Assembly: GCF_022271405.1 (NCBI RefSeq)
Contig: NZ_JAJNAL010000039.1
Location: 1-46,965, forward strand
Source of the DNA: Rhodopseudomonas infernalis
GTDB taxonomy: Bacteria; Pseudomonadota; Alphaproteobacteria; Rhizobiales; Xanthobacteraceae
Reading direction: 5' to 3'
Length of the DNA: 46,965 bases
Below, piece by piece: positions 2,460 to 43,770 of the stretch (the first letter of the stretch is position 1; the number at the start of each line of letters is the position of its first letter). The translations under genes were made by a program, and so were the position numbers. A model generated the notes under the pieces. The model had not been told where the DNA came from and did no database searches. It was given only the letters and a program-made list of their open reading frames with translations.

Positions 2460-2918
2460 ATGAGTAATCCAGTGCCCCACCCCCTCGACGGCGCCATCAT
2501 CGACAGCGCCCATCACATGCAGGTTCGCGTCTACTACGAGGACACCGACTTCTCCGGCATCGTCTATCACGCCAACTATCTGCGGTTCCTGGAGCGCGGG
2601 CGGACCAACTATCTGCGGCTGCTCGGGGCGGCGCAGAGCGAGCTGTTTGCGGAGGCGGAGAGCGAGACGCCGGGGTTCGCGTTCGTGGTGCGGGCGATGC
2701 AGCTCGATTTCCTCAAGCCGGCCAAAATGGACGATGTGCTCGAGGTGATCACCCGGCCGATCGAGGTGCGCGGCGCCTCGATCAGCATGCATCAGCAGGT
2801 GAAACGCCGTGACGACGTGCTGATCGAGGCCAGGGTCAAGGTCGCCTTCGTCTCCGGCGGCCGGGCACGGCCGATCCCACTACCGCTGCGGGTGGCGATG
2901 AAGGCGGACGTGACTTGA
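2460..2918 (+). CDS. ybgC: Tol-Pal-associated acyl-CoA thioesterase YbgC
   Basis: A 152-residue hotdog-fold thioesterase. The motif VRVYYEDTDFSGIVYHANYL contains the catalytic Asp of the 4-hydroxybenzoyl-CoA thioesterase/YbgC family. YbgC proteins hydrolyse acyl-CoAs and are tied to phospholipid metabolism at the Tol-Pal complex. ATG 2460 is preferred; an in-frame GTG at 2448 would add four residues. YbgC is normally followed directly by tolQ, but here tolQ starts about 15 kb downstream. The last ~80 nt of the gene are duplicated at 3835-3918 beyond an inserted gene, so the present 3' end may have been contributed by the insert. Confidence 0.93.
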   Translation: MSNPVPHPLDGAIIDSAHHMQVRVYYEDTDFSGIVYHANYLRFLERGRTNYLRLLGAAQSELFAEAESETPGFAFVVRAMQLDFLKPAKMDDVLEVITRPIEVRGASISMHQQVKRRDDVLIEARVKVAFVSGGRARPIPLPLRVAMKADVT

Positions 2919-2920
2919 TC
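2837..2920 (+). repeat. Direct repeat copy 1: ybgC 3' end (candidate attL)
   Basis: These 84 bp, covering the last codons and stop of ybgC, recur at 3835-3918 exactly 998 bp downstream in the same orientation. I count 6 mismatches, mostly at the distal end near the stop codon. Duplication of a gene's 3' end around an insert is the signature left when an integrating element recombines at that site and restores the gene. Confidence 0.85.
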
Positions 2921-2935
2921 TGCTAGTATTCAGGA

Positions 2936-3745
2936 TCAAAAAATCGCAGGGTCGGAAATCGATGATTTAGTGACCAAGAGATCGGCACCAAGTCGCGCGA
3001 CCGTATCTTTTACAACGTCCGAGTACCATGCAGGAGCCGATGGCGAGATGCAGACTCTTTCGATCAAAGTGCGGATATCGCACGCAACATCTTGTCCGGA
3101 AGGATAAATGGCCTTCGCATTCCTTAAATCTTCGGGCTTCTCAACGCTCTGCAAGAAGCACGCTCGTAGCTCGCGTTCAGGTTCGAAGCTTCTTCGCTTT
3201 CGGAAGAATGGATTAAACATGTTGCCTGGTTCGATATGATCTCGGTCATAGTCGATGTACTGTATCGGGCCGATGCAGATACTTCTGGTGTCGTTTTTGA
3301 TGCTCTCCTTGAGTCTTCCAATTGTTGATTTGATTGCAACCCCGTCTGCGGGGGGTGCATAGACCGACCAAAGAAACGCCGATTCATGTTCATTCATGTT
3401 CCAACAGTTGATATAGATTAGGGCCGCGGAATTATCTCCATCTTGTTTCCGCCGTTGCGGATCAAAAAGATACTCGCGTAGCTCGCGCGAGCGGCAAGCT
3501 TCCAGCGGAAACCCCGTATATCGCTGCATGAACTCTTCATCCTTTATCAGCGCATTGCACAAATCAAGGTCTGGGCGTGATAGCGTTCCTTCGAACGGGT
3601 CTTGTTCGCGAAGCTCCAGCCCCCGACAGAAATAGATGGAAGACTTGGTCAGCAAGCTAAGAAACTTTGCCAAACTCATAAATCTCCAGATTACTGTCTC
3701 CTCCGGCGGCAATGTTCCAGCTGATACGTGAGGAAAGTAGGGCAC
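2936..3745 (-). CDS. DUF2971 domain-containing protein
   Basis: A 269-residue protein of the DUF2971 family, whose biochemical function is unknown to me. Family-like features are the N-terminal IWRFMSLAKFLSLL and IYFCRGLELREQDPFEG segments, the central CWNMNEHESAFLWSVY region (residues ~115-130) and IGPIQYIDYD followed by FRKRRSFEPERELRA. There is no signal peptide or membrane segment. The GTG start at 3745 keeps the conserved N-terminal WRF segment; the next Met (3679) would remove it. Codon use is markedly less GC-biased than in the neighbours (many AAA, TTT, TCT and AGA-type codons), and the gene lies antisense between duplicated ybgC ends. Both indicate horizontal acquisition. A role in defence or stress is possible but unsupported here. 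Confidence 0.8.
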   Translation of the reverse strand: MPYFPHVSAGTLPPEETVIWRFMSLAKFLSLLTKSSIYFCRGLELREQDPFEGTLSRPDLDLCNALIKDEEFMQRYTGFPLEACRSRELREYLFDPQRRKQDGDNSAALIYINCWNMNEHESAFLWSVYAPPADGVAIKSTIGRLKESIKNDTRSICIGPIQYIDYDRDHIEPGNMFNPFFRKRRSFEPERELRACFLQSVEKPEDLRNAKAIYPSGQDVACDIRTLIERVCISPSAPAWYSDVVKDTVARLGADLLVTKSSISDPAIF

Positions 3746-3834
3746 GCGCGCTACCCATTCATTTCTAGTGTTGGCTATGAAGGTTCAATTTATTCCCGCA
3801 GGGGAACCGCAACAATCCGCCCATTGGTTAGAAA

Positions 3835-3918
3835 CAAGGTCGCGTTCGTCTCCGGCGGCCGGGCGCGGCCGATCCCACTACCGCTGCGGGTGGCGATGAA
3901 GGCGGATGTTAACTGATC
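3835..3918 (+). pseudogene. Direct repeat copy 2: displaced ybgC 3'-end fragment (candidate attR)
   Basis: This second copy of the ybgC 3' end still encodes KVAFVSGGRARPIPLPLRVA and then MKADVN plus stop, but has no start or body of its own. It differs from copy 1 at six positions. It is either the original ybgC terminus displaced by the insert or a diverged duplicate. It does not look expressed: no start codon with a ribosome site leads into it. Confidence 0.8.
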
Positions 3919-4008: not shown

Positions 4009-5394
4009 ATGACTGGTACGATTTCTTCTGGTCCGTTTGCTGCTGGTCCGCTTGCTGCTGATAAGCCTGCTGCTGACAAGCCTGCTGCTGATACGCCCCA
4101 CCGGATCGTCATTGTCGGCGGCGGCGCTGGCGGCCTCGAGCTCGCCACCGCGCTCGGCGACAAATACGGCGACGCCGGTTCCGTCCGCGTCACGCTGGTC
4201 GATCGCAGCCGCACCCACATCTGGAAGCCGCTGCTGCACGCCATCGCGGCCGGCTCGCTACGCCGCTCGCAGCACGAGCTGAACTATCTGGCCCAGGCGC
4301 ACTGGCATCATTTCCACTACCGGCTGGGCGAGATGAACGGGCTGGATCGCGCCCGCAAGGTGATCAAGCTGGCGCCGGTGATCGACGACGAAGGCCGCGA
4401 GATCAATCCGCAAAGCGAACTCGGCTATGACACGCTGATCGTCGCGGTCGGCAGCGTCACCAATGATTTCGGCACGCCCGGCGCCAAGGACTACGCGGTG
4501 CCGCTGGAGACGCCGGAGCAGGCGACGCGGTTCAACCGCCGCATGGTCAATGCCTGCCTGCGCGCCCAGCATCAGCACACCCCGATCGAGCCGGGCCAGT
4601 TGCACGTCGCCATCATCGGCGCCGGCGCCACCGGCACCGAACTCGCCGCAGAACTCCACCACACCGCGCGAGAAATCATCGCCTACGGGCTCGACAAGAT
4701 CGATCCCGAGCACGACCTCAAGATTGTGCTGATCGAGGCGGCCGACCGCATCCTGCCGGCGCTGCCGGAGCGGATCTCGCAGGCGACCCTCAAGCTGCTG
4801 ACCGACCTCGGCGTCGAGGTCCGCACCCGCGCCCGCGTCGCCGAGGTGCTGCCCGACGGCATCAAGCTCGCGGACGGTCAGCACGTCCCGTCCGAACTGG
4901 TGGTGTGGGCGGCGGGCGTGCGCGCGCCGGATTTCCTCAAGGACATCGACGGCCTCGAGACCAACCGGATCAATCAGCTGGTGGTGAAACCGACGCTGCA
5001 GTCGAGCAGCGACGAGGACGTGTTCGCGCTCGGCGATTGCGCCGCCTGCGCGATCCCCGGCTACGAGAACAACGTGCCGCCGCGCGCCCAGGCGGCGCAT
5101 CAGGAGGCCGAGTTCCTGCTGGCGCAGATCGAGAAGCGGCTGGCCGGTCAGCCGCTGGGCGAGTTCCGCTATCGCGATCTCGGCTCGCTGGTGTCGCTCG
5201 GCAAATATTCCGCGGTCGGCAATCTGATGGGCTCGCTGGTCGGCCGAAGCTTCCTGATCGAGGGCTATTTCGCCCGCTTCATGTATCGCTCGCTGTACAA
5301 GATGCACGAAGCCGCTTTGTACGGCCGCGGCCGGACGCTGCTCAGCATGCTGTCCGGCTCGACCCGGCCGACACCGACGGTGAAGCTGCACTGA
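4009..5394 (+). CDS. ndh: Type II NADH dehydrogenase-like FAD oxidoreductase
   Basis: A 461-residue pyridine nucleotide-disulphide oxidoreductase of the NDH-2 type, which passes electrons from NADH to quinone without pumping protons. The FAD-binding motif IVIVGGGAGGLELA lies near residues 33-46 and the NADH-binding motif HVAIIGAGATGTELA around 200. The second FAD contact is VFALGDCAA. The C-terminal FARFMYRSLYKMH region is the usual amphipathic membrane anchor. The N-terminus is extended by about 25 low-complexity residues in which AADKP is tandemly repeated, encoded by CTGCTGCTGA-type repeats; the true start could lie later, but no better in-frame Met precedes HRIVIVGG. An AGGA sits just upstream of ATG 4009. 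Confidence 0.88.
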   Translation: MTGTISSGPFAAGPLAADKPAADKPAADTPHRIVIVGGGAGGLELATALGDKYGDAGSVRVTLVDRSRTHIWKPLLHAIAAGSLRRSQHELNYLAQAHWHHFHYRLGEMNGLDRARKVIKLAPVIDDEGREINPQSELGYDTLIVAVGSVTNDFGTPGAKDYAVPLETPEQATRFNRRMVNACLRAQHQHTPIEPGQLHVAIIGAGATGTELAAELHHTAREIIAYGLDKIDPEHDLKIVLIEAADRILPALPERISQATLKLLTDLGVEVRTRARVAEVLPDGIKLADGQHVPSELVVWAAGVRAPDFLKDIDGLETNRINQLVVKPTLQSSSDEDVFALGDCAACAIPGYENNVPPRAQAAHQEAEFLLAQIEKRLAGQPLGEFRYRDLGSLVSLGKYSAVGNLMGSLVGRSFLIEGYFARFMYRSLYKMHEAALYGRGRTLLSMLSGSTRPTPTVKLH

Positions 5395-5535: not shown

Positions 5536-6774
5536 ATGGCGGGCGTAGACATCGGCAAGGAGCCGCGCGTCGAAATTCTCGGGCCGCGTGAACGCGATCT
5601 GCGGCTGGATTTTCTGCGCGGCCTCGGTCAGTGGATGATCTTTCTCGATCACATTCCCTACAACGTGATGAGCTGGCTGACGCTGCGCAACTACGGCTTC
5701 TGCGATGCCGCCGAGTTCTTCGTCTACATCTCCGGCTATTCGATCGGCTTCGCCTACGGCCCCGCGATCCGCTCCGGCGAGATGGTGGCGGCGATCAAAC
5801 GGCTGTGGACGCGGGCGGCGCAGCTCTATGTCGCGCACGTCTTCTTGTTCCTGTTCTTCACCGCGCAGATCGCGCGCGCCGCGCGGCGCTTCGACAATCC
5901 GATGTACAAGGACGAATTCAACGTCGCGCAGTTTCTCGAAAATCCCGACGTGATGATCCAGCAGGCGCTGCTGCTGAAGTACAAGCCCGTCAACCTCGAC
6001 GTGCTGCCGCTCTACATCGTGTTCGTGGTGGTGGCGCCGCTGATCCTGTGGGGACTGATGCGGCGCCCGACCGTCACGCTGGTGCTGTCGGGCCTGCTGT
6101 ATCTGGTGTCGCGCACGGCCGGCTGGAATCTTCCCTCGTTCCCGGATGGTCATTGGTACTTCAACCCGTTCGCCTGGCAGTTCCTGTTCGTGTTCGGCAT
6201 CTGGTGCGGCTTCGGCAACGGGCCGCAGATCCGCCCCTGGGTGAAGTCGTGGCCGAACCAGACGCTGTCGTGGATCATCGTCGCGGTGGCGTTCGTGATC
6301 GCGATGTCGTGGAATTTCGAGGCGCTGTGGGGGCTGGTGCCGGAGGCGGTCGGCAAGGTGATCTATCCGATCGACAAGACCAGCCTGTCGCCGCTGCGGC
6401 TGATCCATTTCCTGGCGCTGCTGACGATCGTGGTGAAGCTGCTGCCGCCGGATCTGCCGGCGCTGCGCTCGCGCGCGCTGCATCCGATCATCCTGTGCGG
6501 CCAGCGCTCGCTGCCGGTGTTCTGCTTCGGCGTGCTGCTGTCGTTCACCGCGCACTGGATCCTGCGCCAGGTCTCGGGCGGCGTCGCGATGCAGATATTC
6601 GTCAGCCTCGCCGGCATCGGCCTGATGATCGGTATCGCCTGGGTCGCCACCTGGTATCGCAGCCTGCCGACGCTGTTCACCGTGCCGGTGACGATGCCGG
6701 TCGCGGACGAGCCGGCGAAGCAACCGGGCGAGTCCAAGGCGGAGCAGCCGGAAATCGTCAAGGCGTCGGTCTAG
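5536..6774 (+). CDS. opgC: OpgC-like integral membrane acyltransferase
   Basis: A 412-residue polytopic inner-membrane protein of the OpgC/acyltransferase-3-like family. Family features are DLRLDFLRGLGQWMIFLDHI at the N-terminus (residues ~20-39), AAEFFVYISGYSIGFAYG and NPFAWQFLFVFGIWCG. About ten hydrophobic segments are apparent. OpgC proteins succinylate osmoregulated periplasmic glucans; OpgC-domain proteins of this class in alphaproteobacteria are seldom tested, so the substrate is inferred. The ATG at 5536 has GAGGAG upstream and is preferred over a TTG at 5497. The C-terminal tail of ~30 residues is charged and cytoplasm-like. Confidence 0.82.
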   Translation: MAGVDIGKEPRVEILGPRERDLRLDFLRGLGQWMIFLDHIPYNVMSWLTLRNYGFCDAAEFFVYISGYSIGFAYGPAIRSGEMVAAIKRLWTRAAQLYVAHVFLFLFFTAQIARAARRFDNPMYKDEFNVAQFLENPDVMIQQALLLKYKPVNLDVLPLYIVFVVVAPLILWGLMRRPTVTLVLSGLLYLVSRTAGWNLPSFPDGHWYFNPFAWQFLFVFGIWCGFGNGPQIRPWVKSWPNQTLSWIIVAVAFVIAMSWNFEALWGLVPEAVGKVIYPIDKTSLSPLRLIHFLALLTIVVKLLPPDLPALRSRALHPIILCGQRSLPVFCFGVLLSFTAHWILRQVSGGVAMQIFVSLAGIGLMIGIAWVATWYRSLPTLFTVPVTMPVADEPAKQPGESKAEQPEIVKASV

Positions 6775-6782
6775 GCCTTGGC

Positions 6783-6809
6783 TTGACTCGGTGTACCGAT
6801 CGGTACAAT
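6783..6809 (+). promoter_or_regulatory. Promoter with perfect 16-bp TetR-type operator
   Basis: A perfect palindrome TGTACCGATCGGTACA (6792-6807) lies between a -35-like TTGACT (6783-6788) and a -10-like TACAAT (6804-6809; 15-bp spacing). It begins 37 bp upstream of the DUF1348 gene and overlaps the -10. Palindromes of this kind are typical TetR operators, and a tetR gene follows at 7478. A bound repressor would block RNA polymerase. Confidence 0.7.
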
Positions 6810-6843
6810 CTTCGCGGCATTCGATCCGCCGTGGAGAAGCCCG

Positions 6844-7311
6844 ATGTCGCGCCCGCCGCTGCCGCCGTTCACCCGCGAGACCGCCGCCCAGAAGGCGCGG
6901 ATGGCCGAGGACGCCTGGAATTCGCGCGATCCCGTGAAGGTGTCGCTCGCCTACACGCCGGACAGCAGCTGGCGTAACCGCGCGGAATTCTTCCAGGGCC
7001 GCGACGCGATCGTCGCCTTCCTCACCCGGAAATGGGAGCGCGAGCACGAGTACCGGCTGATCAAGGACCTGTGGGCTTTCGACCGGAATTTCATCGCGGT
7101 GCGCTTCCAGTACGAATGGCACGACGATGCCGGCCAGTGGCATCGCTCCTATGGTAACGAGCAATGGGAGTTCGACGAAGCCGGCCTGATGCGCCGCCGC
7201 GAGGCGAGTATCAACGACGTTGCGATCAAAGAGAGCGACCGCCGCTTCCACTGGCCGGCACCGGGGCCACGCCCGGCGGACGTGCCGGGGCTGGCGGCAG
7301 AGCCGTTTTGA
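6844..7311 (+). CDS. DUF1348 / NTF2-like (SnoaL-fold) protein
   Basis: A 155-residue cytoplasmic protein of the DUF1348 family (nuclear transport factor 2-like cone fold). Typical segments are [38 protein letters not shown] and [11 protein letters not shown]-like [13 protein letters not shown]. No catalytic activity is established for the family as far as I know. It starts 37 bp after the palindromic operator and is followed by a tetR gene on the same strand. The natural reading is a small inducible unit: an NTF2-fold protein controlled by the TetR protein encoded at 7478. The ligand is unknown. Confidence 0.87.
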
Positions 7312-8062: not shown

Positions 8063-8093
8063 TCCTCGACCGTCTCTCCCCGCGCAAAGCGCC

Positions 8094-8117
8094 CCCTCTC
8101 CCGCAAGCGGGAGAGGG
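8094..8117. repeat. Dispersed palindromic repeat, family A
   Basis: A 24-bp palindrome with arms CCCTCTCCCGC and GCGGGAGAGGG around AA, 30 bp after tetR. It is the same element as at 1228, 9955 and 10077, with the CTCTCCCCGCGCAAAGCGC-type flank also seen at 10055. Confidence 0.85.
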
Positions 8118-8226
8118 AGCGCGCTGCGGCCTCGGGCTCGCTCATCGGTTCAAGTCGCGGCGCAATCCATCCCTTACGACGGAACCGAACTGCCTGCCTT
8201 GGCCGGCGCAAACTTCTCCGCCATGC

Positions 8227-9904: not shown

Positions 9905-9954
9905 TTACTCCGGAAAAGGAGCGAAGCGCAGCGCCCGCGTCGCCCTCACCCCAC

Positions 9955-9978
9955 CCCTCTCCCGCAAGCGGGAGAGGG
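9955..9978. repeat. Dispersed palindromic repeat, family A
   Basis: A 24-bp palindrome with arms CCCTCTCCCGC and GCGGGAGAGGG around AA, just after the ECF42 gene. A further copy lies ~100 bp away at 10077 in the inverted flank arrangement, so the pair forms a larger inverted module between the convergent sigma and SDR genes. Confidence 0.85.
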
Positions 9979-10076
9979 AGCCCGCCGCGTCGCTGGGCGA
10001 TCTCGTGCAAACTCGCTCATGTAATTTGGGATAAGCGCCCTCTGGAATCGGTGTCTCTCCCCGCGCACCGCGCGCC

Positions 10077-10100
10077 CCCTCTCCCGCTTGCGGGAGAGGG
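10077..10100. repeat. Dispersed palindromic repeat, family A
   Basis: A 24-bp palindrome with arms CCCTCTCCCGC and GCGGGAGAGGG around TT, followed by a GTTGGGGTCAGGGCGAGTCG tail like that after the 1228 copy. It is placed just downstream of the SDR stop on the minus strand. Confidence 0.85.
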
Positions 10101-10144
10101 TTGGGGTCAGGGCGAGTCGGGCACTACGCCCGCGATCATCCGGA

Positions 10145-33903: not shown

Positions 33904-33985
33904 CGTCATTGCGAGCGGAGCGAAGCAATCCAGCGCCGCGCGCGCGGCGTGGATTGCTTCGTCGCTATCGCTCCTCGCAATGACG
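33904..33985. repeat. Dispersed inverted repeat, CGTCATTGCGAG type (family B)
   Basis: The 82-bp element opens CGTCATTGCGAGCGGAGCGA and ends with the complement, TCGCTCCTCGCAATGACG. A second inverted pair lies inside (GAAGCAATCCA / TGGATTGCTTC). It is inserted between glcD and glcE, within one operon. A longer relative is at 43654. Confidence 0.92.
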
Positions 33986-43653: not shown

Positions 43654-43770
43654 CGTCATTGCGAGCCAACGGGTCGGCGCAAAGCGCCGCCCGATGACAG
43701 GCTCCGCGAAGCAATCCAGCGCCGTGCATGGGGCGTGGATTGCTTCGTCGCTTCGCTCCTCGCAATGACG
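43654..43770. repeat. Dispersed inverted repeat, CGTCATTGCGAG type (family B, long form)
   Basis: A 117-bp element with the same ends as 33904-33985 (CGTCATTGCGAG ... CTCGCAATGACG) and the inner GAAGCAATCCAGCGCCGTGC / GTGGATTGCTTCGTCG pair, but with an extra ~35-bp GC-rich arm (GGCGCAAAGCGCC). Confidence 0.92.

Follow-up and report, generated by a model that had tools for sequence, protein, structure and literature searches.

The window analysed here is the whole 46,965-nucleotide stretch at positions 1 to 46,965 of contig NZ_JAJNAL010000039.1 (assembly GCF_022271405.1) of the alphaproteobacterium Rhodopseudomonas infernalis. Near its start, an intact ybgC gene is followed by a short AT-rich insert with a single gene, here called the cargo, and then by a second copy of the ybgC 3′ end. 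The features of this locus are:

2460–2918, + strand: ybgC, intact, 4HBT thioesterase family (Pfam 4HBT, 3.3e-15)
2837–2920, + strand: left repeat, the ybgC 3′ end, ending 2 bp beyond the stop codon (sequence comparison)
2868–2908, + strand: 41-bp stretch that is fully identical in both copies (3866–3906 in the right copy)
2921–3834, no strand: AT-rich insert of 914 bp (GC 0.49 against 0.68 in the flanks)
2936–3745, − strand: cargo gene of the DUF2971/PDC-S31 family, 269 amino acids, antisense, the only long open reading frame (ORF) of the insert
3835–3918, + strand: right repeat, a second ybgC 3′ end that runs on into native downstream sequence (comparison with strain AAP120)
4009–5394, + strand: FAD/NAD(P) oxidoreductase, which adjoins ybgC directly in 10 of 14 relatives

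Comparison of the window with itself (E 3e-29) gives a pair of direct repeats spaced 998 bp apart, both of them copies of the ybgC 3′ end, in which 78 of 84 bp are identical and the six mismatches fall at left-copy positions 2846, 2867, 2909, 2912, 2914 and 2915. A preliminary description of this DNA had reported such repeats around an AT-rich, antisense, single-gene insert, and the layout and the shift in composition were both borne out. When 389,678 bases of the genome, window included, were filtered for repeats of 50–400 bp with at least 80% identity and a distance of 400–3000 bp, four pairs passed, one of which is the ybgC pair; the other three, whose sequences and ORFs were read by eye, are dispersed palindromic repeats and not gene ends. 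Copies of a dispersed repeat also occur in the window, in both orientations, at 1206–1277, 8072–8128 and 9929–10125, and on contig 2 of the same genome a 298-amino-acid ORF, SIR2-like by eye, is flanked by two copies of a dispersed palindromic repeat (L150, 9919–10815). A separate 66-bp direct repeat, 92% identical, is found at 33920–33985 and 43706–43770 of the window, nearly 10 kb apart. As the origin of the window layout, dispersed repeats were rejected; they are likely in genome G143, which is taken up below.

The same-genus set comprised 16 genomes, own included, of which 15 gave a ybgC match and one (G015) gave none. All 14 of the other genomes with ybgC have a single ybgC end, the empty site that the preliminary description had proposed to look for, and one of them (G012) has an additional full-length ybgC paralogue elsewhere. 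The oxidoreductase gene follows ybgC directly in 10 of the 14; in G011 a metallophosphoesterase gene lies between the two, without repeats, and in G008, G001 and G002 the oxidoreductase gene was not found behind ybgC. In the window itself, the start of this gene (4013–4072) is made of imperfect 15-bp tandem repeats, giving a repetitive N-terminus. The closest genome, Rhodopseudomonas sp. AAP120 (G014), is among those with a single ybgC end, and behind its next gene it carries a cargo homologue that is 51% identical, antisense, AT-rich and without flanking repeats (L021, 3147–3944, turned). The two genomes thus carry one member each of a rare family, at adjacent places.

AAP120 also helps to tell which of the two ybgC ends is native. 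It is identical to the right copy at 77 of 84 positions and continues to match over the following 90 bp (74 of 92 alignment columns), while the left copy is identical at 74 of 84 and the bases behind it (2921–3010) found no match in the 14 same-genus loci beyond pieces of at most 23 bp. At the six differing bases, read 5′ to 3′, AAP120 agrees with the right copy, neither copy, the left, the right, the right and the right, so that just ahead of the stop it is the right copy, and not the left, that looks native. The last codon of the intact ybgC is off the native type: its product ends in KADVT, where AAP120 and the right copy have KADVN. The earlier suggestion that the ybgC end now in use is the imported one thus holds for the last codons and the DNA behind them, and the right copy is native-like at its end and in its downstream DNA; the first two of the six differences are not attributable to either origin. 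With native sequence continuing from the right copy and foreign DNA behind the left, the most likely course is that the incoming DNA brought a ybgC end along. Third codon positions account for five of the six differences, and among the five changed codons four changes are synonymous and one exchanges T and N, which makes it probable that each copy derives from a functional gene.

The synonymous character of these differences bears on one explanation of the layout, namely that the ybgC end was duplicated locally, in tandem or as a target site, that a gene was inserted between the copies and that they later drifted apart. Random decay of a spare copy would look different, and the pair of repeats without an insert, an arrangement that the preliminary description had considered telling against an imported cassette, occurs in none of the 14 same-genus relatives. 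What such a duplication might look like is seen in G096, one of two further partial duplications (with G081) that were found when 391 genomes of the family were scanned with the YbgC C-terminal peptide and 28 other multi-match genomes were searched again; judged from frame lengths and identities, the second matches in most of those 28 appear to be full-length paralogues. In G096, a 251-bp ybgC end lies around a duplicated VOC-type gene and runs 28 bp past the stop, which is best read as a tandem duplication. The window repeat, on the other hand, halts 2 bp after the stop and has foreign DNA behind its left copy. We therefore keep local duplication for G096 and reject it for the window, where we would give it only a very slight chance.

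The other case, G081, belongs to another genus and has different cargo, enclosed by a complete ybgC and a fragment of a ybgC end, as the preliminary description had anticipated for a hotspot. Its decayed ybgC end lies immediately ahead of tolQ, 2,084 bp beyond the point where the intact gene ends. Within the insert are a SLATT gene (Pfam SLATT_5, 6.6e-34) and an interrupted gene, the second piece of which is SIR2-like (PADLOC 5.9e-7; Pfam 0.014, below the cut-off) and the first piece of which gave no good match. G044, of the same genus as G081, has its ybgC end once, and tolQ follows at a distance of about 0.3 kb.

A similar layout recurs at a second gene. In a metagenome-assembled genome (MAG) of the Hyphomonadaceae (L068), a cargo homologue lies directly after lepA, and a 145-bp lepA end is repeated 923 bp on with 98.6% identity. 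This match prompted a survey of 105 genomes of the family of that MAG with the LepA end as query, so the rate obtained at lepA is not unbiased: clean lepA-end duplications were found in 3 of the 105 (G391, which is L068, G398 and G429), and one more genome (G461) is ambiguous. G398 has a 124-bp repeat (90%) with one ORF of 170 amino acids between its copies, and G429 a 66-bp repeat (92%) with one antisense ORF of 413 amino acids. Neither protein has a match in Pfam or PADLOC, so some of the cargo cannot be identified as defence. We excluded G461 from the clean count, as its two lepA-end fragments are on one 4-kb contig and its full lepA on another; just beyond the second fragment is a 755-amino-acid protein with Mrr_cat and nSTAND3 domains that matches PADLOC PDC-S73 at 1.9e-140 (L095, 887–3154). 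A fragment in G444 was rejected, the match being to the terminal part of a lepA gene that a run of N interrupts. Across the class (289 genomes), two genomes gave two lepA matches each, G667 and G502. The first was rejected as a cassette, because its second lepA end, a copy of 381 bp, lies amid dispersed repeats on a different contig; the second has 7% contamination and was counted only by its two matches.

The boundaries of the repeats are informative as to how these layouts arose. Relative to the last base of the stop codon, the repeats end at +2 in the window, −2 in G391, +2 in G398, −1 in G429, −11 in G081 and +28 in G096, so that four of the six ends are no more than 2 bp away from it. Their starts differ between cases. 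Repeats that end at the stop point to two gene ends from different genomes, since a local duplication has no reason to halt there. In G429, the two nearest relatives agree with the left copy from 34 to 19 bp before the stop (further relatives are mixed), and the sequence past the right stop resembles that of a relative, G435. In G398, most of the eight nearest relatives go with the left copy as far as −25 but share the bases of the right copy at −15 and −7, weaker evidence because the right copy is decayed, and in G391 the differences are too few to place a crossover. All this suggests that the DNA that came in bore a gene end and recombined once, close to the stop codon, which both host homologous recombination and a site-specific enzyme would fit.

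We therefore regard the ybgC insert of the window, with about an even chance of being right, as a horizontally acquired single-gene cassette that was captured through the ybgC end by the homologous recombination of the host. That the cassette is horizontal is argued by the single end in relatives, the foreign composition, the native right junction, the repeat ends at the stop codon and the recurrence at other loci. The incoming DNA would have brought the cargo together with its own ybgC 3′ end from a related bacterium, and would have entered the chromosome by a crossover within the shared gene end, without an integrase of its own, either as a circle by a single crossover or as a linear piece by homology-facilitated illegitimate recombination. 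The left copy would then supply a full end and the other end remain as scrap; it is because the left copy provides a complete end that ybgC is intact. The direct repeats may also let the cassette loop out later and enter another strain in the same way.

The most serious competitor, which we nevertheless consider rather unlikely, is that the insert is a remnant of a site-specific element, like the cis-mobilizable elements (CIMEs), with the ybgC end as the attachment site attB, the repeats as attL and attR, and an integrase that was lost or acts in trans. The repeats do span the end of a conserved gene and leave its reading frame whole, which is also true of elements that reside in gene 3′ ends, and CIMEs keep attL and attR without integration or transfer genes (PMC5704250, in the part consulted). 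In addition, the lepA crossovers map to the last 19–25 bp in the two readable cases, and such clustering favours a site-specific enzyme. Against a site-specific origin, no integrase was seen among the ORFs of the inserts read between duplicated ends, neither from the 391 genomes at ybgC nor from the 105 at lepA, and of the two double-match genomes in the class-wide lepA survey, G667 was read and had no integrase among the ORFs near its second lepA end. The inserts are about 0.5–2 kb, and the lepA repeat starts vary. Moreover, the right copy of G429 is unlike the two nearest relatives at 3 or 4 sites 19–34 bp before the stop, implying homology beyond what an att core needs. Varying starts, homology upstream of the crossover and the lack of an integrase in the inserts read favour host homologous recombination. 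The preliminary description had proposed an integrase-less cassette using ybgC as its site: the small insert without an integrase at the 3′ end stands, and ybgC is at most a putative attB.

It has also been found that integrase-free hotspots have frequent recombination at their flanking core genes (PMC5635113, consulted in part), and a ready-made, repeat-flanked cassette could have been moved by ordinary recombination in the flanks after a founding insertion elsewhere by some other route. This shifts the question to the donor, and a search of 391 family genomes turned up no donor with this cassette at ybgC; we hold it improbable.

Flanking repeats were also sought around the homologues of the cargo, for which 26 loci were collected, 21 from named genome records and 5 from viral contigs; at 24 of the 26 the GC content of the gene is below that of the DNA on either side. 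A common test, requiring a direct repeat of at least 50 bp within 300 bp on both sides, was applied to 30 testable homologue loci, leaving out L087 (no right flank) and L064 and L065 (too short). Three were positive, namely the window, L068 and L047 (from G143), against 0 of 1520 random 800-bp control segments from the same loci, so flanking repeats are over-represented at homologue loci. By this test they are absent at 27 of 30, among which L069 has 338-bp repeats 4.6 kb apart and L084 a 32-bp repeat. The repeat at L047 is a dispersed intergenic one, and between its 78-bp copies (6220–7082) the cargo homologue is split over frames.

Turning to the cargo itself, the protein reaches 15.4 bits against Pfam DUF2971 (PF11185; E 0.048), short of the gathering cut-off of 22, and the label is backed by plasmid homologues annotated as DUF2971. 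It matches PADLOC PDC-S31 at 4.2e-16, a family for which PADLOC has no curated cut-off here, and three homologues match at 1.2e-16 to 5.4e-22; it also matches the phage family phrog_34615, of unknown function, at 1e-52. With the Pfam match below threshold, PDC-S31, phrog_34615 and the annotated plasmid homologues give the firmer placement. A search of NCBIfam gave no match, and a single-sequence search of genomes and viral contigs no close relatives. Homologues at E ≤ 1e-10 are rare in the family, with 9 of 391 genomes, own included. On a Caballeronia plasmid (L061), a DUF2971 gene has genes for DUF1837 and a DEAD/DEAH helicase as neighbours, and a gene for a site-specific integrase is found about 4.5 kb off.

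No solved structure is related by sequence below E 0.48. The structure model (pLDDT 92.6) has a predicted ADP-ribosyltransferase-like fold with DarT as the nearest match, at moderate scores and with 7–9% identity across the aligned part. R20 and E191 are invariant in 24 sequences, and residues of DarT are named in the part of PMC11543638 consulted. The cargo is probably a single-gene anti-phage effector with a predicted DarT-like ADP-ribosyltransferase fold, and the earlier suggestion of a defence role goes as far as the PDC-S31 match and the moderate fold match. PDC stands for phage defence candidate (PMC11514479, where the part consulted does not name S31; the part consulted of PMC8565338 does not mention PDC). 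The insert, with its single long ORF, has no second ORF that could be an antitoxin, and a simple consensus found no promoter on the cargo gene's own strand.

More broadly, it is possible, if doubtful, that integrase-free, homology-armed cassettes are widespread, with one or two AT-rich genes, often of defence, between duplicated core-gene 3′ ends and entry by host recombination, and that their cargo includes DUF2971 as a family of DarT-like ADP-ribosyltransferases that has so far gone unrecognised. The layout hints at one way in which a single gene lacking an integration enzyme may get into a genome. Because duplicated core-gene ends are easy to recognise, genomes can be screened for them at large, which would make the question of how single genes get in testable, and the predicted fold offers a testable activity for a family that a single paper of the literature searched mentions.

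Several known systems resemble the window in part. CIMEs retain attL and attR and have lost their integration and transfer genes; the window insert likewise has none of its own, with one long ORF of the DUF2971/PDC-S31 family, and its repeats include the end of a target gene that stays intact, but the cassette is one gene, no related integrase element was seen at the site in the inserts read, and the repeat starts vary. In the Vibrio type VI secretion system (T6SS) immunity arrays, effectors are displaced by homology-facilitated illegitimate recombination, a conserved stretch is proposed as the anchor for incoming DNA and the old gene 3′ end is left downstream (PMC5361080, in the part consulted), whereas in the window a household gene is the target, its product is retained, and the cargo bears no relation to it. 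Many gene-transfer hotspots lack mobility genes, with variable genes beside core genes that often recombine; these were recognised from recombination of the flanking genes (PMC5635113), while the insertion in the window is marked by a duplicated gene end. DarT of the DarTG system is the nearest solved fold to the one predicted for the cargo, and differs in its 7–9% identity and in that the cassette gene is single, without an antitoxin ORF. Repeats flank 10–18% of variable segments, most of them under 30 bp (PMC2884548, in the part consulted), and among the titles and abstract openings searched this gene-end duplication layout was not described.
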